In this document: positions 6,911 to 61,785 of the stretch, in pieces | How positions within the stretch are numbered: the stretch's first letter is position 1 | Layout: each line of letters opens with the position of its first letter | Source of the DNA: a virus | Length of the DNA: 64,000 bases | Virus record (IMG/VR): IMGVR_UViG_3300046787_000408 | Location: 62,001-126,000 of that record | Reading direction: 5' to 3' (one strand) | Translations under genes and position numbers: made by a program | The notes under the pieces: generated by a model | Told to the model about the DNA's origin: nothing | The model's database searches: none | What the model saw: only the letters and a program-made list of their open reading frames with translations

Positions 6911-9900
6911 ATGGCTTTAATTTCACCAGGCGTAGAAGTAACAGTAATTGACGAAAGTCAATATATCCCATCTGCGGTCAACACAGTACCGTACTTTCTG
7001 ATTGCTACTGCGCAAAACAAAGTAAGTGCTAACGGCGCTACAGTGGCAGCAGGAACGCTTGCAGCTAACGCAAACAAAACTTATCTCATTACTAGTCAGC
7101 GAGATTTGGCAGCTACTTTTGGTGTGCCATTCTTTTATCAGACTACTAATGGTACTCCAATCAACGGTTACGAACTCAATGAGTACGGCTTGTTGGCAGC
7201 GTATTCTACGCTGGGAGTAACTAATCGTGCGTTTGTACAACGTGTGGATATTGATCTGGCAGAACTCACTGCTAGCTTGACTCGTCCTACTGGTAACCCT
7301 GCTGACGGCACATACTGGCTTGATACTGGTACTTCACTGTGGGGTATTCAGGAATGGAATCAAACTACTGCAACATTTACAGTAAAAACTCCAATTGTGA
7401 TTACTGATACAGCTGATGTGGTTGACTTTGAAAATGACAACTTTACACCTCTAGCAACAGTAGGTAGCATTGGTGATTATGCAGTAAGTGCAGTAACACC
7501 CAAGAATCTTGGCTATTACAAGAACACTTCAAACCAGTGGGTATTGATTGGTGGCGATGATTGGAAAACATCATGGGCTACTGTTACTGGTACCGGAACT
7601 CCTACTAGCTTGACTGTTGGTGCAACATTTTATCTCAACAATTCGTTGATCACAGTTGGTTCTACTAACACTGTGGCTGGTCTTGCTGCGGTAATCAACG
7701 CCGCTGCTATTACTGGAGTAACCGCAGCAGCAGTCAGTGGCAAACTAGCAATCTATGCAGATTCAACAGCGGCCAATGATGGATCCACTGCTGACGGCGG
7801 TATTGTTACAATTGATATTGGTGTTGAGCCAGTATCTAGCCAAGCCTTGCTAACTGCACTAGGACTCACAACAGGTGAGTTTTATGCTCCAAACTATTTG
7901 CCTAGCTACAGCTACCAAGTGCCACGTTGGAGAACTACTGACACCAGCCCCCGACCAACAGGTTCTGTATGGAACAACGTTAGTCCAGCCAACAATGGTC
8001 TTGCTTTGCGTGTTAGAAAATACAACGCAGCTCTTGACACATTTGTGTCACAAGCATGTCCTGCATACGCTTCAGACGTGACTGCAATCTATGGACTAGA
8101 TCCCACAGGTGGTGGCAAAAATATTCCAGCTGGCTCAACATATGTTGCTTGGAACACCAATGCTGCTGGTAGCTCTATCGAATCATTCTCGTTTACTATT
8201 CTTGAAAGAATCGCAATTGGTGCTACAGTAATAACTGGTAGCACAACAACACCTGGGCCTTTTGTAAACAACAGTACTTTTAGAATTTCTGCAAGCCAAC
8301 CAGCTACTTCTAGTTCAGTAAGTGCTGTGGCAACATTGGGCGGAACTGGTGTGTCTGACTTTATTGCCGCAGTAAGTGCAGCCAACATTCCATATGTTAG
8401 TGCTAGCGTCAGCTCAGCTGGAAATATTGTGTTTACACACAGCGCTGGTGGTGTTATTGCTTTGCAAAACGTATCTGGAACTCCTGTAACTCTTGCTGGA
8501 TTTACCACAAGTACTGATGGTGTCCGTGAAAGCAACACAACAGCTGGTACATTGTTGTTGAGTAACTGGCGCACAACTCCAGACTTCACATACACAGCTA
8601 GCAGTACAGAACCAGATCAAGATCCTGCTACAGGACGTCTATGGTACTACAGCACTGTGAGCGAAGCTGATATCATGATTCAGAACAACGGTGCCTGGGT
8701 TGGATATCAAAACGTTGCAAACGATGTGCGAGGATTTGACCTGCAAGATACCAATGCTTCGGGACCAATTGTGGCTGCAACTGCACCAACCACACAGACA
8801 GACATTGCAGAAAGTCCGCTAGCATATGGCGATTTGTGGATTGATTCTAGTGACCTAGAAAACTATCCAGCATTGTATCGTTGGGAACCAGTAAGCGGTG
8901 TTGACCAGTGGGTTCCAGTTGATACTACTGACCAAGTAACTGAAAATGGTATTTTGTTTGCAGATGCACGTTGGGCACCTAACGGTACAACAGATCCTAT
9001 TGCTGATCCTATTCCAACTATTGCTAGTTTGCTAACCAGCAACTACTTGGATCTTGATGCACCAGATCCTGCTCTATATCCACAAGGTATGTTGTTGTTC
9101 AACACACGCCGTTCAGGATACAACATCAAGAGCTTCCAGAACAATTACTTCAATGCTACATCATTCCCAGATGACACATTGCCAGCTCAAACTAACACTT
9201 GGCTAACTGCTAGTGGTAACAAGAGCAATGGTGCCATGTGGTCAGGACGTCAAGCACAACGTCAAATGGTTGTAGAAGCCATGAGAGCTGGAATAGATAC
9301 TAGCGCTTCTGCTCGTGAAGAACAAGCACAGTACAGTTTGATTGCTACTCCAGCTTATCCAGAACTGATCCCTAACATGGTTGCACTCAGCAATGAACGC
9401 AACAACACATTGTTTGTGGTTGGTGATACACCAATGAGACTGGCTGCTAACGGAACAGACGTTACAACTTGGGCAACCAACAACAGTGGCCTGGGCTTGG
9501 AAACACAAGACGGCTTGGTAGCTGCTAGTCAGTACCTGGCTACATTCTATCCAAGTTGCCAGACTACAGACCTTGGCGGTCAGTTGGTAGTACAGCCACC
9601 AAGTCACATGATGATGCGTACCATTATTCGTAGTGATGCTGTGAGTTACCCATGGTTGGCTCCAGCTGGTACACGTCGTGGTGTTGTTGACAACGCTACA
9701 GCAATTGGTTACATTGATTCTGCAACTGGTGAATTCCAGCAGATCAACGTGGGCCAAGGCTTGCGTGATGTGTTGTATGAAAACGATATCAACCCAATTA
9801 CATTCATCCCTGGTGTGGGTATTACCAACTTTGGTAACAAGACCACAACTAGTATTACTAGTGCTCTGGATCGTATCAACGTTAGCCGACTGGTTGCGTT

Positions 9901-10189
9901 CTTGCGTGGACGCTTGGAAGAGATTGGTAAGTTGTACTTGTTCGAACCCAACGACGAGATTACTCGTAACGAAATCACCAACACTGTCAACAGCTTGATG
10001 ATTGATCTGATTGCCAAACGAGCAATCTACGACTACTTGGTTGTGTGCGATTTGAGCAACAACACCCCGGGTCGTATTGATCGTAACGAACTATGGGTAG
10101 ACGTTGCTATTGAACCAGTCAAAGCAATTGAGTTTATCTACATTCCGTTGCGAATCAAGAACACTGGTGAAATATCTGGTGGAGCGTGA
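6911..10189 (+). CDS. 18: Tail sheath protein gp18, enlarged
   Basis: 1092 residues. The N-terminus (ALISPGVEVTVIDESQYIPS) and the C-terminal roughly 300 residues (YPWLAPAGTRRGVV, NPITFIPGVGITNFGNKT, DRINVSRLVAFLRGRLEE, FEPND..TR) are the conserved T4 sheath core that forms the contractile tube. T4 gp18 is 659 aa, so about 400 residues of Thr/Ser/Ala/Gly-rich beta-type sequence are inserted, roughly residues 90-700; such insertions form the outward domains of the sheath. The gene starts behind its own late promoter and ends at a strong terminator. Confidence 0.93.
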   Translation: MALISPGVEVTVIDESQYIPSAVNTVPYFLIATAQNKVSANGATVAAGTLAANANKTYLITSQRDLAATFGVPFFYQTTNGTPINGYELNEYGLLAAYSTLGVTNRAFVQRVDIDLAELTASLTRPTGNPADGTYWLDTGTSLWGIQEWNQTTATFTVKTPIVITDTADVVDFENDNFTPLATVGSIGDYAVSAVTPKNLGYYKNTSNQWVLIGGDDWKTSWATVTGTGTPTSLTVGATFYLNNSLITVGSTNTVAGLAAVINAAAITGVTAAAVSGKLAIYADSTAANDGSTADGGIVTIDIGVEPVSSQALLTALGLTTGEFYAPNYLPSYSYQVPRWRTTDTSPRPTGSVWNNVSPANNGLALRVRKYNAALDTFVSQACPAYASDVTAIYGLDPTGGGKNIPAGSTYVAWNTNAAGSSIESFSFTILERIAIGATVITGSTTTPGPFVNNSTFRISASQPATSSSVSAVATLGGTGVSDFIAAVSAANIPYVSASVSSAGNIVFTHSAGGVIALQNVSGTPVTLAGFTTSTDGVRESNTTAGTLLLSNWRTTPDFTYTASSTEPDQDPATGRLWYYSTVSEADIMIQNNGAWVGYQNVANDVRGFDLQDTNASGPIVAATAPTTQTDIAESPLAYGDLWIDSSDLENYPALYRWEPVSGVDQWVPVDTTDQVTENGILFADARWAPNGTTDPIADPIPTIASLLTSNYLDLDAPDPALYPQGMLLFNTRRSGYNIKSFQNNYFNATSFPDDTLPAQTNTWLTASGNKSNGAMWSGRQAQRQMVVEAMRAGIDTSASAREEQAQYSLIATPAYPELIPNMVALSNERNNTLFVVGDTPMRLAANGTDVTTWATNNSGLGLETQDGLVAASQYLATFYPSCQTTDLGGQLVVQPPSHMMMRTIIRSDAVSYPWLAPAGTRRGVVDNATAIGYIDSATGEFQQINVGQGLRDVLYENDINPITFIPGVGITNFGNKTTTSITSALDRINVSRLVAFLRGRLEEIGKLYLFEPNDEITRNEITNTVNSLMIDLIAKRAIYDYLVVCDLSNNTPGRIDRNELWVDVAIEPVKAIEFIYIPLRIKNTGEISGGA

Positions 10190-13352: not shown

Positions 13353-13961
13353 ATGAAACCATTTGCAAAATACCTGGCCGAGAGTGAACGCACATACCAA
13401 TATCGTATCAAGATAGTTGGCGACGTGCCCACAGGCTTTATCAAAGATCTTGAATCAAAGATGTCGCAATTTGATGTAGTCAAGATGGGCAAGCCCAAGA
13501 CTGCACCTGTGCGCAAAAACATTCCAGACTTTCCAGCTTTTCCCAATCAGCCCATGACCATTGTGGATGTGGAGTTTCGCTATCCAGCCATTGAGCCACA
13601 AATCAAACAGTTGGCACAGTTGTTGGGCATGGACCCAAATCGTATTGTTATGAACACAGATGCATACGAACAAAGTCTTGACGACGAAGACAAAAAAATT
13701 CTTGATCAAAACAAAGACCTGTTGGACACTGCTGAGTATCCCCAAGATGATGCACAACAACGTGCATTGAAAAAGGACTACGCAACTGGCCCATATGACC
13801 ACGCTGTGCTGAAAAATGCATATCGTACCAAGTTTACTATTGCTGGCGAAAAAACTCCCCCAGCCAAGACCACAAATGAGTTGCCACAAGGTGTCAAAAG
13901 CCCCATGACCAACATCAAGCGTAAACCCAAGCCAGCAACTGGCGCAAACCCAAGAGGATAA
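13353..13961 (+). CDS. Conserved hypothetical, possible internal head protein
   Basis: 202 residues. The N-terminus MKPFAKYLAES closely resembles the capsid-targeting sequence of T4 internal proteins (MKTYQEFIAE), including a YLAE site of the type cut by the gp21 prohead protease (L/I-x-E). It continues YQYRIKIVGDVPTGFIKDLESK..FDVVKMGKPK, a small alpha/beta domain, and ends in a basic Pro-rich tail (RKPKPATGANPRG). I recall related proteins in cyanophage structural clusters without an assigned role. Confidence 0.72.
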   Translation: MKPFAKYLAESERTYQYRIKIVGDVPTGFIKDLESKMSQFDVVKMGKPKTAPVRKNIPDFPAFPNQPMTIVDVEFRYPAIEPQIKQLAQLLGMDPNRIVMNTDAYEQSLDDEDKKILDQNKDLLDTAEYPQDDAQQRALKKDYATGPYDHAVLKNAYRTKFTIAGEKTPPAKTTNELPQGVKSPMTNIKRKPKPATGANPRG

Positions 13962-19622: not shown

Positions 19623-20762
19623 ATGAGTAATTTCTTTTGCGCAGCCCCTTGGCGTGGGCTGCATATCAATCCCCGTGGCGATGTCAAAACCTGCTGTGCC
19701 GGCGACCCCAACATGTTGGGCAACCTCAACAGCAACACCATCACAGAGATACTGGATTCAGATCTCTTAAAACAAATACGCAGCGAAATGTCACAAGGAC
19801 GAGCACACAAATACTGCTCCAACTGTGTACAGGCCGAACGCTTTGGTGCAGATTCAGAACGCAAGTGGCACAACGACACCAATCCCAATTTTGACTATGC
19901 CACAGCTGGAGAGCAGTATCACTATCCTGTGATTGTGGATGTGCGTTGGAACACCACTTGCAACCTCAGTTGTAACTATTGCAGTGAATGGGCCAGCTCC
20001 AAATGGTCAGCACTCAAGGGCATTCCGTTCAAGTCAGGCTCAAGGCCCTACTATGAACAAGTGTGTGACTTTCTTGAACAACACAAATCGCACATTCAAG
20101 ACGTTGCACTTGTGGGCGGAGAGCCTTTGCTGCTACCCGAAAACGAACGACTGTTGGATGTTATCCCAGAAGATTGTGCTGTGACCTTGATCACCAACAT
20201 GAATGTGGATCTTGACAAGAACAAGATCTTTAAGAAACTAGCACAACGCAAACGAGTTGGGTGGAGCATGAGCTTTGACAACATTGGCGACAGATTTGAA
20301 TATGTGCGTTATGGCGGCAAGTGGAGCATGCTAACAGAGAACTTGGTCAAAGTCAAAGACTTGTTCAAACAAGGCCAGTGGGGTGGTATTCATGCAGTGT
20401 ACAACATCTACAATGCCACACGTATTGTGGAGTTTCGTGAATGGGCTGCTGAACAAGGTGTGTCAGTGTTGTGGCAGAATCTGTTTCAACCCGATTATCT
20501 GGATCCGTTCTTGCACGGACCAGAAGTTGCTGCCGCTGCCGCAGCTGAAATTGAAAGATTCTATGCTACAGGCCTAGCAACACCAGCAGAGCGTCAATTC
20601 TTTGACAATGCTTTGACCACATACCGTGCAGTTACACAAGAACGATCAGGTATCACCAGCAAGTTTCGAGAACATATTGCCGAGATTGAAACTCAATACC
20701 ACAAAGACCAAGCTGGAAAGTTTGCGCAGTTGTGGCCTGAATTATCACATCTAGTACTATGA
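19623..20762 (+). CDS. Radical SAM protein with N-terminal SPASM/twitch-like cysteine region
   Basis: 379 residues. The radical SAM motif CxxxCxxC is C113, C117, C120 (CNLSCNYC), followed by VGGEPLLL, the GGE motif of SAM binding. Before it, residues 5-70 read FCAAPWRGLHINPRGDVKTCC...YCSNCVQAE, the pattern of an auxiliary-cluster SPASM/twitch region, normally C-terminal. The protein should bind a [4Fe-4S] cluster and make a 5'-deoxyadenosyl radical; the substrate is unknown. It overlaps the SGNH hydrolase gene by 4 nt, suggesting joint action. Confidence 0.85.
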   Translation: MSNFFCAAPWRGLHINPRGDVKTCCAGDPNMLGNLNSNTITEILDSDLLKQIRSEMSQGRAHKYCSNCVQAERFGADSERKWHNDTNPNFDYATAGEQYHYPVIVDVRWNTTCNLSCNYCSEWASSKWSALKGIPFKSGSRPYYEQVCDFLEQHKSHIQDVALVGGEPLLLPENERLLDVIPEDCAVTLITNMNVDLDKNKIFKKLAQRKRVGWSMSFDNIGDRFEYVRYGGKWSMLTENLVKVKDLFKQGQWGGIHAVYNIYNATRIVEFREWAAEQGVSVLWQNLFQPDYLDPFLHGPEVAAAAAAEIERFYATGLATPAERQFFDNALTTYRAVTQERSGITSKFREHIAEIETQYHKDQAGKFAQLWPELSHLVL

Positions 20763-52159: not shown

Positions 52160-53113
52160 ATGATTACTTGCGTAGATGCGTTTAAAAATCTAAACGTTGT
52201 TATACAGCAAGGTGGTACTAGAATATCGCCTTGTTGTATATCGCCTACTGTGCCGGTACAGCAGTTGGATTTTAACCACAGCTACCTAACTTCTATTAGA
52301 GAAAGTTTTTCTCAAGGAACATGGCCTTCTAGCTGTGTTAATTGCAAAACTAACGAGCAAGCAGGATATACTAGTAGACGGATAGGCAGTAACCAATGGT
52401 ATACTGATCATCAAATAAACAACCACTCAGTTGAATTAACTAGGATAGACTATTGGACTGGTGACACCTGCAACCTTGCTTGTGTAATATGTGGTCCTGA
52501 AAACAGCAGTATGTGGCAACAGGAATTGGGGATTCAAAAATCATCAGTTGCCAACACACTATGGAAGCAACTGAATCTAACAGCATTAAAATCTGTACAC
52601 TTCAACGGAGGAGAACCGTTGTTGAGTAAAGAGCATGTGCGATTTTTACATGCAATTCCAAATAAATCACAAGTATATTTAAATTACAATACCAACGGAA
52701 CTATTTTACCTAATCAAGAGCTACAACAATTGTGGGCTGAATTCAAGTTAGTACAATTGGATTTTAGTATTGATGATGTAGGCAAAAGATTTGAATACCA
52801 GCGATATCCTGCCCAATGGGATACAATTGAAAACAATTTACAATGGTACATTGAATCTGCTCCGCACAATTGTATGTTCGCAGTCAACACCACAGTGGGG
52901 ATATTGAATCAAAATAACTTAGCTACTCTTGATCAGTGGTTGTTGGAGCATTTTACCCAATCAAGATTTGGTGATCCAATTGAGCATCGTCGACAGAATG
53001 CATTGGGTAAATTTTCAATAACATCTGATATTATACAGGTACGACTGCACCTTGACACACTAGATCAAAGACGCAAAACCAATTGGCGTCTTGTGTTCCC
53101 AGAGTTAGCGTGA
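52160..53113 (+). CDS. Radical SAM protein with N-terminal SPASM/twitch-like region (second)
   Basis: 317 residues. CxxxCxxC is C104, C108, C111 (CNLACVIC), followed by HFNGGEPLLS. N-terminal cysteines are C4, C25, C26, C59 and C62 (SPCCIS...SSCVNC), the same design as the gene at 19623. The core is shorter than in that gene. It starts 1 nt after gp41 but is much more AT-rich, so it looks inserted. Substrate unknown. Confidence 0.82.
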   Translation: MITCVDAFKNLNVVIQQGGTRISPCCISPTVPVQQLDFNHSYLTSIRESFSQGTWPSSCVNCKTNEQAGYTSRRIGSNQWYTDHQINNHSVELTRIDYWTGDTCNLACVICGPENSSMWQQELGIQKSSVANTLWKQLNLTALKSVHFNGGEPLLSKEHVRFLHAIPNKSQVYLNYNTNGTILPNQELQQLWAEFKLVQLDFSIDDVGKRFEYQRYPAQWDTIENNLQWYIESAPHNCMFAVNTTVGILNQNNLATLDQWLLEHFTQSRFGDPIEHRRQNALGKFSITSDIIQVRLHLDTLDQRRKTNWRLVFPELA

Positions 53114-53785: not shown

Positions 53786-54982
53786 ATGGAAAAAGGTAAA
53801 AATTTGTATTGTGCCTGGGCTGACACAGGCCTAGCACTGCATAATTCAGGACGATGCTTGCTGTGTTGTCATAGCCAAACTTATTTGCAGGACACAAATG
53901 GCCAGGAAATATACCTGGACACAGGCTCTATTGAACAGGCCTGGAACAGTCCCACTAGAAAACAAATTCAAGCAGATCTTGAAGCTGGTATTCAGCATCC
54001 CAATTGCAGCGCATGTTGGAACGAAGAAAGTGCAGGGCGTGCAAGTCGCCGCACAGAAGCCAATCGACAGTTTGCTGATATCACTGTCAACCCTGACCGT
54101 CCGCAACTGGTAGACCTTAAACCTGGCAATACCTGCAACTTGGCATGCAGAACCTGTTGGCCTGAAGTCAGCAGCAAATGGTATCGAGACTATTGGGAAG
54201 TTGAAGCTCAGAAATGGGAACCAGACTACCGCAAGTATCTTGATGGGTGGAAACGTATCCGCACCAGTTATGACCGCGATAACGTAAAGCTGTGGTCTGA
54301 CCTAGAATCGTGGTTTACAGACGTAGAGTACTATGACATCTACGGGGCAGAGCCAATGCTGTTGGACAATGTGTTTGTGATCTTACAACAAAGTGTGGCA
54401 TCAGGTAGAGCAGCACATCAAGGCATACACATCAACACCAACTGTACTATATGGAATCAAAGCTACATTGATATTCTTGCACAATTCAAGAACGTGGTTA
54501 TTGACGTTAGCATTGATGGGATTGGCGCACAATATGACTATATTCGTTATGGCGAAACTTGGAGCACTGTGGAACTGAATCTTGCTAGGTATCAGAATCT
54601 AGTTCGTAACCACAGCAACATTCGCATGCATGTTTGTGTCACTGTGTGTATTCTAAATGTATTGCAAGTGATGAACCTGCAGGAATATTTTTGTGCCCGT
54701 GGTGTTCCTGTATTTTTTAACATGGTACATCATCCACAACACTTGAATGTGAGATCCTTGCCTGACACTATCAAACAACAGGTACGAGCCAAGTTTGCAC
54801 CTGCTGAACCCAATTGGCAAATAACCAGTATACTGGATTTCATGGACATGCCCCTGGACAATCAACCTCAACTGTGGCTCAAGTTCTTGGAGTCAACAAA
54901 AAAGCTAGACCTGTTACGAGAACAAGATCTAGCTGAAACGTTTCCTGAATTGGCAGAATTGATTAGCCGGCTACAGCCTTGA
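53786..54982 (+). CDS. Radical SAM protein with N-terminal SPASM/twitch-like region (third)
   Basis: 398 residues. CxxxCxxC is C117, C121, C124 (CNLACRTC). The expected GGEP motif is altered to IYGAEPML near 192. N-terminal cysteines C9, C24, C27, C28, C74 and C77 repeat the design of the genes at 19623 and 52160. The insertion between motif and GxE is longer (RDYWEVEAQKWEPDYRKYL). Its 3' end overlaps the convergent structural gene by 20 nt. Confidence 0.83.
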   Translation: MEKGKNLYCAWADTGLALHNSGRCLLCCHSQTYLQDTNGQEIYLDTGSIEQAWNSPTRKQIQADLEAGIQHPNCSACWNEESAGRASRRTEANRQFADITVNPDRPQLVDLKPGNTCNLACRTCWPEVSSKWYRDYWEVEAQKWEPDYRKYLDGWKRIRTSYDRDNVKLWSDLESWFTDVEYYDIYGAEPMLLDNVFVILQQSVASGRAAHQGIHINTNCTIWNQSYIDILAQFKNVVIDVSIDGIGAQYDYIRYGETWSTVELNLARYQNLVRNHSNIRMHVCVTVCILNVLQVMNLQEYFCARGVPVFFNMVHHPQHLNVRSLPDTIKQQVRAKFAPAEPNWQITSILDFMDMPLDNQPQLWLKFLESTKKLDLLREQDLAETFPELAELISRLQP

Positions 54983-55983: not shown

Positions 55984-56244
55984 ATGCAGAAGAAAACAAA
56001 AAGTATCTTGGAAGAATTGGACACATTGTACGAAGAAAAATATGCCGAGAGAGATCGCAGGTATATTATTGAAACTCGTGCTAGCAATGTAATTGCTTCT
56101 GCCATTCGCTTGATAGAACAAATTGAGTCAGAGTTCCCCGGGGAACAAGCAGAAAATCTCACACGCAAGCTGCTCAATGCCATAAGAACAAAAGACTCTG
56201 GAAAGTTTTCCAGATCAGTAAGGAAAACCGATGCAGATTCATGA
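55984..56244 (+). CDS. Small conserved helical protein, 86 aa
   Basis: KKTKSILEELDTLYEEKYAERD then ASNVIASAIRLIEQIESEF, a probable coiled coil. From memory, similar proteins occur in cyanophages near structural genes. It overlaps the next gene by 14 nt. Role unknown. Confidence 0.75.
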   Translation: MQKKTKSILEELDTLYEEKYAERDRRYIIETRASNVIASAIRLIEQIESEFPGEQAENLTRKLLNAIRTKDSGKFSRSVRKTDADS

Positions 56245-56908
56245 AATAACACACCGACAGATAAACGAAATATTGGGCACAATGGCCAAGGCTGTGGGCG
56301 GCGCCCTAGCGCAAAAAGCTGCATCAACACAAGGTATTGACCTAGACAGTCAACCTGACAAAGTGGGCGTGGGACAACGACAGGGTGCTGCCATGAAAAT
56401 GAACGCTGGCCTTATTCAAGCCCTGGCCAAGAAAGCACAAGAATCCTGGACCACAGAAGTACAAAACATGATTGTAAAAAGTGAGCCCAAGATCATGAGT
56501 GCGTCCCAGATCAAACTGCCCACAATTGAATTGGAACTTCAGGCCTTGATCAACAGCTTGGCTGGATTTGATGTAACCAGCCTGGCATCGGCCAAAGACC
56601 CCAGTGGACAAAGTCAACTTACTATTAAACAGCTATTGCAGGCCAAAGATGAAGTGGTCAAGGCCACTGTGGCACCCAAGGCTGATCCTGCTGCAATGAG
56701 TCGTGCATGGAACAGTTTGGCTACCATGATTTCCCAAGCACAAAACGTCAAGGCATTTGTGCCAGCTGAAGCTGGCGGCACACAGCCAGCAAAAATTACA
56801 TTCGACGCACAAGGTAAAATGTTGTACAACAACAAGCCTTTTGACGCTAGAGATCAAAGCCATGTCATGGCTCAACAACTTCAGGCCAAGGCCGCACCCA
56901 AAACATGA
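56231..56908 (+). CDS. Hypothetical virion-cluster protein, 225 aa
   Basis: MQIHEITHRQINEILGTMAKAV start (a short targeting-like helix with an INEI site), then Ala/Gln/Lys-rich helices (KMNAGLIQALAKKAQESWTTEVQNMI, LELQALINSLAGFDVTSL) and a small beta end (PAKITFDAQGKMLYNNKPF). Not recognised. Overlaps the next gene by 4 nt, so it is expressed with the large two-domain protein. Confidence 0.72.
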   Translation: MQIHEITHRQINEILGTMAKAVGGALAQKAASTQGIDLDSQPDKVGVGQRQGAAMKMNAGLIQALAKKAQESWTTEVQNMIVKSEPKIMSASQIKLPTIELELQALINSLAGFDVTSLASAKDPSGQSQLTIKQLLQAKDEVVKATVAPKADPAAMSRAWNSLATMISQAQNVKAFVPAEAGGTQPAKITFDAQGKMLYNNKPFDARDQSHVMAQQLQAKAAPKT

Positions 56909-58824
56909 AACTATTACAAACTCTATTAGAAGGCGGTAATGTCTTTAAAGACAAACAAGGACAGCCATTAACACAGCGCATCAATCAAGCAGATGTGCCT
57001 GCTACCATTGCCTATCTTGAAAACATTCTAGGCATGGAATTCCCCCAAGAACGTTGGTTGGGATCCACAGGTCGCAAGCCCACATCTGGAGACTTGGATT
57101 TAGCTGTGGATCTTGGCGAAATCAACAAAGATCAACTTGCTGCCAAGCTCACACAGTTTGTGCAAAGTCAAAAACAAGACCCACGTGAGTGGGTTAAAAA
57201 AGCCGGCGAAGTGCATTTCCGCACTCCCATTGCTGGAGATCCCAACAAAGGCTACGTACAAACAGACTTTATGTTTTTCCCTAACTTGGACTGGGGCACA
57301 TTCTTCTACGGTGGCGCAGAGGGATCCAACTACAAAGGCATGAATCGCAATGTGCTGATGTCAAGCATTGCCAAAGCACTGGGACTCAAAGTGGGTGCCA
57401 ATGGCATGTTTAGCCGTGCCACAAATGAATTGGTTCGAGGCGGTCAAGATCCCAACTATGTGGCCAACGTTTTGCTGGGACCTGCATTCTCCCGAGAAAA
57501 TCTAAAAAATGTTGAAAGCATTTACAAAGCACTCAGCAATGATCCTGATCGAGAAATCAAACTAAAAGACTTCCGTGAATATCTAGCACGTGAAGGCCTA
57601 CAAGAGCCACAACAGTCCATGGCCGAAGATGGCGTGGGCTTTTTGGGACGACTTCGCGATCGCATTGTAAATCAAGGCATGATGCCCTTGGTAGAAGCGT
57701 CTAACCCTTATGAATTGTACGAAGCAGAAGCAGCCGGTGTAGGCGGCAGAGCCAAGGGCATTGAACACTTGGAAGATCTAGTGTTTCGCCGTGGTACCCA
57801 GGGTATCCTAGATGCCTTGGAAATTGTGCAACACGCCACAGAAAAACCCAGTACAACCACTGCTAAATGGGACGGCAAACCTGCTGTGATATTTGGTCGT
57901 AAGCCTAGTACAGGTGAGTTTGTGCTTACAGACGGATCAGGGTTCGAAGCCAAGGGCTACGATGGTCTAGCTACCAGTCCCAGAATGATGGCAGACATAC
58001 AAAGTCGACGTTCGGGCGACAGAACAGAACTGATTCAATTGTATGCTACTCTGTTCCCGGTACTGGAGGCTGCACTGCCCTCCAACTTCCGTGGCTATGT
58101 CAAAGGTGACTTGTTGTACATGTCAACACCTCCTGAGATTGCAGGAAACTATGTGTTCCGTCCCAATACTGTTGAGTACAAAATTCCAGCACGAAGTTCC
58201 TTGGGGCAACGCATTGGCAACAGCAACATTGGCATTGCTATTCACAGCATGTATGCAGATGTTGGCGATGCACGTCAGCCCTTGAGCGGCGTAAAGTTCA
58301 ATGATGTTCCAGGCTTGATGTTAGAGCGTCCTGCTACACCGCGACAACTCACTACAGAACCTGCCAAGGTCAAGCAACTCAAACAACTGGTACGTAGCAG
58401 TGGTTCGGCAATCAACACACTGTTCAACCCTGTGGAATTGCGTGCTAACAAGATCACTGACTTGGCCAAACTGTGCGTGGACTATATCAACACCAAGGTA
58501 GGAACTCCACTCAACCCACAAACACTATTGCCTGAGTTTGGGGAATGGCTCAAGACCAAGGTAACACCGCAAAAGTTCCGTAACATTGTGGAATACCTGC
58601 AGAGCCCTACGTCAAATACACAGGCCATGGCTGCTGCATTTACAGCGTTCTTGTTGTTGCATGACATCAAGATGGATATCTTGCGACAAGCTGATCTTGA
58701 GCATCCTGGACAAGAAGGTTGGGTAATGGCTACCCCTGCAGGCTATGCCAAGGCAGTAAATCGCTTTGACCCCAATGCATTTGCTGCTCAAAATAGAATG
58801 CAAAATAATCCTCAAACCCGGTGA
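56905..58824 (+). CDS. Two-domain protein: Pol-beta-type nucleotidyltransferase plus KxDG ligase-like domain (DUF6267-like)
   Basis: 639 residues. The N-terminal part has RWLGSTGRKPTSGDLDLAVD: G53-S54 and D63/D65 fit the GS...DxD of MNT/Pol-beta nucleotidyltransferases, with a third acidic residue D121 in YVQTDFMFF. Residues 310-450 contain AKWDGKPAVIFG (K321-x-D-G, the nucleotide-binding motif of DNA/RNA ligases), then FRGYVKGDLLYM near 395-406 and NTVEYKIPARSS near 421, which resemble motifs III and IV. From memory the second half corresponds to a phage family of unknown function (DUF6267). It starts MKLLQTLLEGG, possibly a capsid-targeting peptide (LLE). Substrate unknown. Confidence 0.7.
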   Translation: MKLLQTLLEGGNVFKDKQGQPLTQRINQADVPATIAYLENILGMEFPQERWLGSTGRKPTSGDLDLAVDLGEINKDQLAAKLTQFVQSQKQDPREWVKKAGEVHFRTPIAGDPNKGYVQTDFMFFPNLDWGTFFYGGAEGSNYKGMNRNVLMSSIAKALGLKVGANGMFSRATNELVRGGQDPNYVANVLLGPAFSRENLKNVESIYKALSNDPDREIKLKDFREYLAREGLQEPQQSMAEDGVGFLGRLRDRIVNQGMMPLVEASNPYELYEAEAAGVGGRAKGIEHLEDLVFRRGTQGILDALEIVQHATEKPSTTTAKWDGKPAVIFGRKPSTGEFVLTDGSGFEAKGYDGLATSPRMMADIQSRRSGDRTELIQLYATLFPVLEAALPSNFRGYVKGDLLYMSTPPEIAGNYVFRPNTVEYKIPARSSLGQRIGNSNIGIAIHSMYADVGDARQPLSGVKFNDVPGLMLERPATPRQLTTEPAKVKQLKQLVRSSGSAINTLFNPVELRANKITDLAKLCVDYINTKVGTPLNPQTLLPEFGEWLKTKVTPQKFRNIVEYLQSPTSNTQAMAAAFTAFLLLHDIKMDILRQADLEHPGQEGWVMATPAGYAKAVNRFDPNAFAAQNRMQNNPQTR

Positions 58825-60046: not shown

Positions 60047-60540
60047 TCAAACACGAGAAACTTGAACGCTTTGCCACTAAAGAAATGCAAAGTCTAGCTA
60101 CCAGGCTTATTGTGCCTGATGGCAAGGACGGCTATCATGCATTTGGCAAGTATCATGTATCTCCCAAAACTGAACATGTTACTGTTGGTATCAAGAATAG
60201 AGATCCACTAACCTTTGGAAGCAAACGCAGCGCTATCAGTTGGTGTGTAGCAGATCACCTAAATCAGCACGCTCTAGCACGTAGCATTCATTTGCTAGAC
60301 AACAAAAAACATAGCCTAGCGGCGGACATACAGTGCCGACGGGCTCTAGCCGAAAGAAGTCGCAGCCAAGACTTCTATGAATCAGTAACAACCAAGATAC
60401 AAAGCAAGGTTGAGTACTATAATGTGTTGACTCAGGAATTAGAGAAATGCATTAATTCGGCTAAATATTGGCAAATAAGAGGATTCTCCCATGAAACTGA
60501 ACGACCTGGCCGCTCCGCGTCCCACAAAACAAATCGCTAA
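60043..60540 (+). CDS. Conserved hypothetical, 165 aa
   Basis: From the ATG at 60043 (ATGA overlap with the previous stop). YHAFGKYHVSPKTEHVTVGI, TFGSKRSAISWCVADHLNQ and a long C-terminal helix (LAADIQCRRALAERSRSQDFY...EYYNVLTQELEKCI). Not recognised. It overlaps the next gene by 50 nt. Confidence 0.7.
   Translation: MIKHEKLERFATKEMQSLATRLIVPDGKDGYHAFGKYHVSPKTEHVTVGIKNRDPLTFGSKRSAISWCVADHLNQHALARSIHLLDNKKHSLAADIQCRRALAERSRSQDFYESVTTKIQSKVEYYNVLTQELEKCINSAKYWQIRGFSHETERPGRSASHKTNR
60461..60467 (+). promoter_or_regulatory. Late promoter core (CTAAATA)
   Basis: Inside the coding end of the preceding gene, 23 nt before the ATG at 60491, with an aagagga site. Confidence 0.6.
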
Positions 60541-61435
60541 AGTATTTGAAAGTTACTTTGGTACTGGTATCAAGTTTGAAAGCCTAAGTCGCAATCAGAC
60601 TCGAAATCTGTTGAGCCGTGTGCAAGGCTTGCTCAAAGAGCACCGTAGCACATCAGCTAGACACACCAGCGAACAAAATCCCAGTTACCTCAAACTGGTT
60701 ATGATGGAACAAGCACTGACTCAGCGAGTTAAAGAAAACATGGTGCCGCCAGTGGGTCAAACTACTCCACCTGGACAACCAGCCAAGCCTGGACAACCAG
60801 CCAAGCCTGGACAACCGGCCCCTGCTGTGGCAGGCGCTGCGGCTAAAGATCCCAAGTTGGCTGCGGCACTGAAGAAAAGCCAAGCAGGCCAAACACTGAA
60901 TCCTGAAGAACAAAAGATGGTAGCTGGTGCTGCCATGATGGCGCAAGAAAGTCGTTTACGCCGTGCCTACAAGATGTTGAAAGAAAGTGAAGTTCAACAA
61001 GCTCAAGTTGTTCTTGCTGCCCAAGACATGGTAGACAAAATGCAAGGTATGTTGGAAGACGTATCTGAACTACAGTTCAAAGAACTGCCAGCCTTGGTTG
61101 ATTCAATCAAGAACCAAGTTGGTATTGACCAAGCCACTCAGTTCAACGGTGATGCTAGTGCTGCACTCAGCGGACTCATGCAAAACCTGCAAGCAGCCAA
61201 GCAACAACTGGACCAAGCCCTGGGCGTGGTAACTGGTACTGCTGCTCCAGCTGCTCCTGACGCTGCGGCAATGGGTGCTCAAGCTGGTGCTGAACTAGGC
61301 GCAGAAGCTGGTGCTGACATGGGTGCTGAACTAGGCGCAGAAGCTGGTGCTGAAGATGACCTAGCTGCTGTTGATGCTGAAGCTGAACTAGGTGCAGAGC
61401 CAGCTGGTGCTGCTCTAGGCCGCGCACGTAGATAA
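60491..61435 (+). CDS. Ala/Gln-rich virion or prohead-associated protein with repeats
   Basis: 314 residues. KQIAKVFESYFGTGIKFESLSRNQTRNLLSRV and NPSYLKLVMMEQALTQRV form a helical N-part. PGQPAKPGQPAKPGQPA (about 95-111) is a tandem repeat, and GAELGAEAGADMGAELGAEAG near 265-290 another. The middle (VVLAAQDMVDKMQGMLEDVSELQFKELPAL) is a coiled coil. Composition is that of a scaffold/core or internal head protein; from memory a homologue occurs near structural genes in cyanophages. Confidence 0.7.
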   Translation: MKLNDLAAPRPTKQIAKVFESYFGTGIKFESLSRNQTRNLLSRVQGLLKEHRSTSARHTSEQNPSYLKLVMMEQALTQRVKENMVPPVGQTTPPGQPAKPGQPAKPGQPAPAVAGAAAKDPKLAAALKKSQAGQTLNPEEQKMVAGAAMMAQESRLRRAYKMLKESEVQQAQVVLAAQDMVDKMQGMLEDVSELQFKELPALVDSIKNQVGIDQATQFNGDASAALSGLMQNLQAAKQQLDQALGVVTGTAAPAAPDAAAMGAQAGAELGAEAGADMGAELGAEAGAEDDLAAVDAEAELGAEPAGAALGRARR

Positions 61436-61785
61436 TGAAAATATTTGAAGTAGCCGGAGACTCATCTACACCCAGTCCTGACCAATTGTTGGGACTGGTG
61501 CAGTTTCTTGCAGGCCGCGCTGACGATACTAGCGCTCCAAAACAGATCAGTGTAGATGCGTTTGTGAACTTGGCGCAGAGCCTAGACATCAACGTAAACC
61601 GAAACAACGTTGAAGAAATTGTAGGACAACCACCACTCAGTAGTGTGTTGGAACCATTTGAACCTGACACAAACCAAATTGTGTTCAAAGGTGCCGAACA
61701 GTCTGGTCCTACCCAAATGCCCGTAAACAAAGCACAAGACATTGTGGCCGCAGCAGCCAAATCGGCGATGAAACGTAAACGATAA
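61435..61785 (+). CDS. Small conserved hypothetical virion-cluster protein
   Basis: 116 residues, MKIFEVAGDSS start (short targeting-like peptide), then PDQLLGLVQFLAGRADDTSA and a basic end (AAKSAMKRKR). The FVNLAQSLDINVNRNNVEEI helix is recognisable in related phages from memory. Overlaps the previous gene by 1 nt. Confidence 0.72.
   Translation: MKIFEVAGDSSTPSPDQLLGLVQFLAGRADDTSAPKQISVDAFVNLAQSLDINVNRNNVEEIVGQPPLSSVLEPFEPDTNQIVFKGAEQSGPTQMPVNKAQDIVAAAAKSAMKRKR

Follow-up and report, generated by a model that had tools for sequence, protein, structure and literature searches.

A family-X-polymerase-like domain fused to a probable ligase-type DUF6267 domain in large phages, with head-targeting-like signals

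What does a phage do with a single protein that carries two different nucleotidyltransferase-type sites and is encoded among its structural genes? The question is raised by an open reading frame (ORF) in the window, a stretch of 64,000 nucleotides (bases 62001-126000) from the virus record IMGVR_UViG_3300046787_000408, which is 300 kb long and has contractile-tail, terminase and replication genes. An earlier note on this DNA had read the first site as Pol-beta/MNT-type and the second as ligase-type, and every residue that it named (G53-S54, D63, D65, D121, K321, D323 and G324) is found exactly at the position claimed. The features of the locus are collected in Table 1.

Table 1. Positions in the window of the fusion ORF, its parts and its structural neighbours (a slash marks a putative cut)
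Feature	Position	Strand	Remarks
Small virion-protein homologue	55984..56244	+	phrog_11854, head and packaging, E 4e-14
Fusion ORF, 639 aa	56905..58824	+	ATG start; about 170 fused homologues
N-terminal leader MKLLQTLLE, capsid-targeting-like	56905..56931	+	ends L-x-E just before GGNVF
Family-X-polymerase-like domain, about residues 10-230	56932..57594	+	AlphaFold model, PDB fold search
Polymerase motif G53-S54 ... G62-D63-L-D65	57061..57099	+	G53, G62, D63, D65 invariant, 84 sequences
Third catalytic-type aspartate, D121	57265..57267	+	invariant, 84 sequences
Linker, residues 231-284	57595..57756	+	about 34-57 aa long among homologues
Possible internal prohead-protease site L262-V-E264/A265	57688..57699	+	linker [LI]xE[ASG] enrichment
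DUF6267 domain, probable ligase-type nucleotidyltransferase, residues 286-621	57760..58767	+	Pfam PF19782, E 1.1e-30
Motif I, K321-W-D-G	57865..57876	+	invariant, 68 sequences including cyanophages
Motif III, G401-D-L-L	58105..58116	+	D invariant; G and L nearly so
All-helical insert, about residues 486-599, between motif III region and motif IV	58360..58701	+	predicted secondary structure
Motif IV, E604-G-W-V	58714..58725	+	E, G and V invariant
Motif V, K616-A-V	58750..58758	+	K and V invariant
Downstream virion structural protein homologue	60491..61435	+	phrog_14154, E 2e-11

The fusion ORF overlaps the stop of the upstream gene as ATGA. Its proposed location in a structural cluster holds, as neighbours on both sides match PHROG virion structural proteins. 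A homologue of the upstream neighbour is kept at the same locus in PA5oct, Atu_ph07 and Phosso, and one of the downstream neighbour stands in the same order in PA5oct and Phosso. Elsewhere in the window, the tail sheath protein (6911-10189) is unusually long (1092 aa), a radical SAM/SPASM-type ORF (53786-54982) and a related ORF (52160-53113) match each other with E 1e-22, and a further radical SAM ORF lies at 19623-20762.

Hundreds of IMG/VR stretches match the polymerase-like half and hundreds match the DUF6267 half. About 170 distinct ORFs bear both, which excludes a local assembly error as the origin of the fusion; the two-half architecture is real and widespread. Two loci have the fusion broken into two adjacent ORFs (L051 1200-3137 and L218 983-2879), by frameshift, sequencing error or a true split. 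In the homologues from L033 and L038-L042, the polymerase half is about 80% identical and the DUF6267 half only about 34%, which suggests domain exchange by recombination in the linker.

The catalytic-type motif residues are not there by chance, since they are invariant or nearly invariant in alignments of 84 N-half and 68 C-half sequences. The N-half alignment, made of phage homologues, served as the basis of an AlphaFold model (mean pLDDT 90.4, pTM 0.80), whose palm and thumb are closest to family X structures. All 50 of the best listed PDB matches were family X DNA polymerases (Pol mu, lambda, beta, TdT, Thermus PolX and Leishmania Pol beta), with E values of 1.9e-4 to 1.2e-3 (40 of the 50 below 1e-3), probability 1.00 and TM around 0.45. 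The palm has the GS..GDxD motif and third Asp of family X, and 13 of the 84 homologues weakly match the Pfam PolB thumb model. Two details of the sequence, the G-S-x8-D-x-D spacing with a Gly before the first Asp and a K-G-x2-R segment after the third, are a better fit to family X than to MNT. The MNT-like assignment of this half is corrected accordingly. The N half of the window protein has no Pfam match up to E 10, and we call it family-X-like rather than a member by profile because no thumb or palm model was matched over its cut-off. A clear 8-kDa lyase domain is absent from it, PDB sequence searches with either half gave chance matches only, and a narrow pattern scan detected no relative of the N half in cellular genomes.

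The second half had been taken for a phage DUF without an assigned role. This is borne out: it passes the curated cut-off of DUF6267, a family of unknown function (107.7 bits against 27). In the 68-sequence alignment, which reaches down to 23% identity, the conserved motifs follow one another as ligase motifs I, III, IV and V do in the covalent nucleotidyltransferase superfamily; the motifs III and IV suspected after the KxDG are present as GDL and EGxV, and conserved. The ordered pattern occurs in 194 of 207 DUF6267 homologues. With its strict form, a single match was obtained among this genome's 90 genes of 300 aa or more; a form with looser spacing selected just the fusion and the genuine DNA ligase of the phage. 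An AlphaFold model of the C half (pLDDT 93.9, pTM 0.88) has strands that bear or adjoin the four motifs, with the helical insert, some 115 residues, preceding motif IV.

The fold comparison of the two halves that had been called for gave a clear result for the first, with matches to family X and not to MNT, and a weaker one for the second. The top five PDB matches of the C half were ATP-dependent DNA ligases at E 0.013-0.21 and TM around 0.2, followed by unrelated entries and a human capping enzyme; no PDB fold match reached E 1e-3. In the viral structure library, matches after its own family include an RNA ligase and a capping enzyme. The helical insert probably hampers the alignment. An OB-fold domain with motif VI is absent, only about 20 residues following motif V, and nick sealing by this half is uncertain because of this absence and of the weak PDB matches. 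We consider it likely, from motifs and predicted topology mainly, that the C half is a ligase-type nucleotidyltransferase. The claim of a ligase-type second site is supported, and so is that of one protein joining two nucleotidyltransferase-type folds that differ, the second of them a probable one. The possibility that the fusion is the phage's replicative DNA ligase was rejected: the fusion does not match Pfam DNA_ligase_A_M, and the only gene of the genome that does is a separate replicative ligase at G000:146247.

We then come to the signals at the N-terminus and in the linker. All 170 homologues with a readable N-terminus have [LIV]-x-E before a conserved GG[N]F start, and this ending is kept while the leader varies from 4 to 10 aa. 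Unfused relatives, those of PA5oct, Atu_ph07 and Phosso, lack the leader and begin with M-[GS]G, so that cleavage after the Glu would yield the same mature start. A short leader ending in (L/I)xE, together with a gp21-type protease encoded by the same phage (here E 8e-25), is what one expects of capsid-targeted cargo, as in T4, where a capsid-targeting sequence is trimmed by gp21 (PMC9958956). Of 126 unique linkers, 100 contain the motif [LI]xE[ASG], where shuffling predicts 14; these sequences, like those of the leaders, are related and are not independent events. In the split marine phages L164-L167 the halves are encoded separately, by overlapping genes in unchanged order, and each gene has a leader of its own (MILKE/GG and MRLVEFKEVDKKNLALKE/SR). 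A genome-wide leader scan gave 10 matches where 2 were expected, which is only suggestive because several are clearly not leaders. Leader-like N-termini are also seen in the window at 13353-13961 (MKPFAKYLAE/S), 56231-56908 (MQIHEITHRQINE/I) and 61435-61785 (MKIFE/V), and may mark further head cargo. The PA5oct homologue of the polymerase-like half is listed as structural by mass spectrometry; this is soft evidence, since thymidylate synthase and other cytoplasmic enzymes bear the same label. As judged from these sequence patterns, head targeting of the fusion protein gains support, and the capsid-targeting-like N-terminus suspected at first rests on firmer ground than a single sequence could give it.

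The two halves are not always found together. The polymerase-like gene stands alone in PA5oct, Atu_ph07 and Phosso, at the corresponding place after primase, helicase and the small head protein, and a separate KxDG protein is encoded 0-2 genes upstream of it. When DUF6267 was compared with these neighbouring ligase-like proteins by hhalign, the alignment was confined to motifs IV-V (E 0.003, probability 11%), which does not establish that the two ligase partners are directly homologous. IMG/VR gave no PA5oct homologues. In Atu_ph07 (L083 9606-16108), eight tandem paralogous genes directly follow the polymerase-like gene. Nearly all begin with M[KR]W.QL.E and many have a YRGM segment; they look like a family of head-targeted effectors, perhaps, we presume, ADP-ribosyltransferase-like, and have no Pfam match.

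Conversely, DUF6267 occurs without the polymerase-like half in 467 phage records, mostly of cyanophages. There, an NMNAT-like cytidylyltransferase gene adjoins it in 78 of 80 IMG/VR loci, and in S-PM2 the two are joined, with a fused product of 591 aa in the structure library. In the deposited S-PM2 sequence (p141/p142, L346 3026-4805) DUF6267 is divided between two annotated genes, and the second extends into the cytidylyltransferase; given the fused product, this split may be a frameshift. The cyanophage partner begins with MRFIQFIRE/A or MNFTQFLRE/A, a leader that we take to resemble those of T4 internal proteins. Its family, T4-GC190, was detected in purified S-SM1 virions (PMC3037559), and a cytidylyltransferase in S-CREM2 virions, whose authors caution about carry-over (PMC10665884). 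The cyanophage arrangement is like ours in that the same domain adjoins or is fused to a nucleotidyltransferase, and differs in that this partner is a HIGH-superfamily transferase instead of a family-X-polymerase-like one. Taken with the fused and adjacent cases above, it indicates that the ligase-type module is linked time and again to a nucleotidyltransferase, the fold of which varies.

Proteins joining a polymerase and a ligase are known. Bacterial LigD, which works with Ku in NHEJ, has a polymerase and an ATP-dependent ligase in one protein. It differs from the phage fusion by a polymerase of primase-polymerase (AEP) type and a ligase with an OB domain; background on it is given in PMC3656841. 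Closer is PgVPolX of Phaeocystis globosa virus, a single viral protein in which a ligase domain comes after a polymerase core of Pol-beta-like type, and for which gap filling and sealing were proven biochemically; it is an enzyme of 1093 aa from a eukaryotic giant virus, with an NAD-dependent LigA-type ligase and a lyase activity, and the part of that paper available does not mention virion processing signals (PMC5537341). The phage fusion, in contrast, belongs to tailed phages, has DUF6267 without an OB fold as its ligase half, and bears head-targeting-like signals. In this last respect it recalls the T4 internal proteins and Alt, which carry at the N-terminus a short capsid-targeting peptide, cleaved by gp21, and are packaged in the head (PMC9958956). 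These are neither polymerase nor ligase, whereas the phage fusion would be a precursor of two enzymes and probably has a second cut site.

From these comparisons we infer how the protein might be packaged, cut and injected, and on what it might act. The reading that we place first, and hold tentatively, is a virion-delivered precursor of a polymerase and a ligase for the repair of ends or gaps in incoming DNA. The single gene would produce a precursor of a family-X-polymerase-like nucleotidyltransferase and a DUF6267 adenylyltransferase of ligase fold. The leader ending in L-x-E would direct it into the prohead, where the gp21-like protease would cut the leader off after E9 and probably also the linker after E264, leaving two separate enzymes in the mature head. 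Both would enter the cell with the phage genome. The polymerase would supply one or a few missing nucleotides at a gap or an end. The nick would be closed by the ligase domain, with AMP attached to K321. The target would most likely be the incoming phage DNA, before the replicative ligase is made; the presence of that ligase elsewhere in the genome makes a special early role of the fusion plausible.

RNA repair, which we rank second to DNA repair at entry, appears possible but rather doubtful. Host or phage tRNA that defence nucleases have cut would regain its lost nucleotides through the polymerase-like half and be rejoined by the ligase half. Such a reading finds an analogy in jumbo phages, where RlaP, a Pol-beta-superfamily enzyme, is functionally paired with KxDG ligases, the Rnl RNA ligases (PMC7824862). 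It is also favoured by the C half, which unlike DNA ligases has no OB domain and counts RNA ligases among its viral fold matches, and by the ligase-like neighbours of Atu_ph07 and Phosso, which weakly match Pfam RNA_ligase (E 0.002 and 0.085). Unlike the RlaP-Rnl pairs, however, the phage protein is fused, family-X-like with a thumb, and provided with head-targeting-like signals, and DNA ligases rank first in the PDB matches of its C half. Membership of RlaP (PF10127) was rejected, as the whole genome record has no match to this profile at E 10.

An intracellular enzyme that is never packaged, with LxE sites in leader and linker that are coincidental or structural, seems unlikely. The position of the gene directly after primase and helicase, which are replication genes, and the indirect nature of the mass-spectrometry evidence for packaging speak in its favour, but it does not readily account for a leader pattern kept throughout despite variable length, for a second leader in the split genes and the enrichment in the linker, or for the detection of the cyanophage partner family in virions. 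Less probable still are injected enzymes that modify the host, either by putting nucleotides on host proteins or small molecules in the manner of T4 Alt, or by NAD/NMN handling. Packaged T4 enzymes such as Alt do modify host proteins (PMC9958956), and the cyanophage partner of DUF6267 is NMNAT-like; the thumb-bearing family X fold and the ligase motif set nevertheless suggest polynucleotide ends. Finally, the toxin-antitoxin-like role that had been considered, which the Pol-beta superfamily motif favours, is very improbable and was rejected, since it loses its basis once the N half falls with family X polymerases rather than MNT, no partner toxin is seen, and PADLOC returned no match.

Returning to DNA repair at entry, a pure gap-repair role leaves the cyanophage pairing of DUF6267 with an NMNAT-like enzyme unexplained. 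A broader and more speculative proposal, to which we give limited credence, is that large phages of a widespread group inject a self-processed repair kit, in which cleavage of a polyprotein by the prohead protease would release a family-X-like polymerase and an OB-less ligase onto the incoming genome, the NMNAT-like partner found elsewhere possibly regenerating the nucleotide donor.

A literature search covering 5.39 million papers found none mentioning DUF6267. The domain itself is present in hundreds of records from T4-like cyanophages and in hundreds of contigs from freshwater phages. Reading DUF6267 as a ligase-type domain, with a changing nucleotidyltransferase partner and head-targeting signals, gives the family a testable function. 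If the reading is true, phages would deliver nucleic-acid repair enzymes together with their genome, as T4 does Alt.
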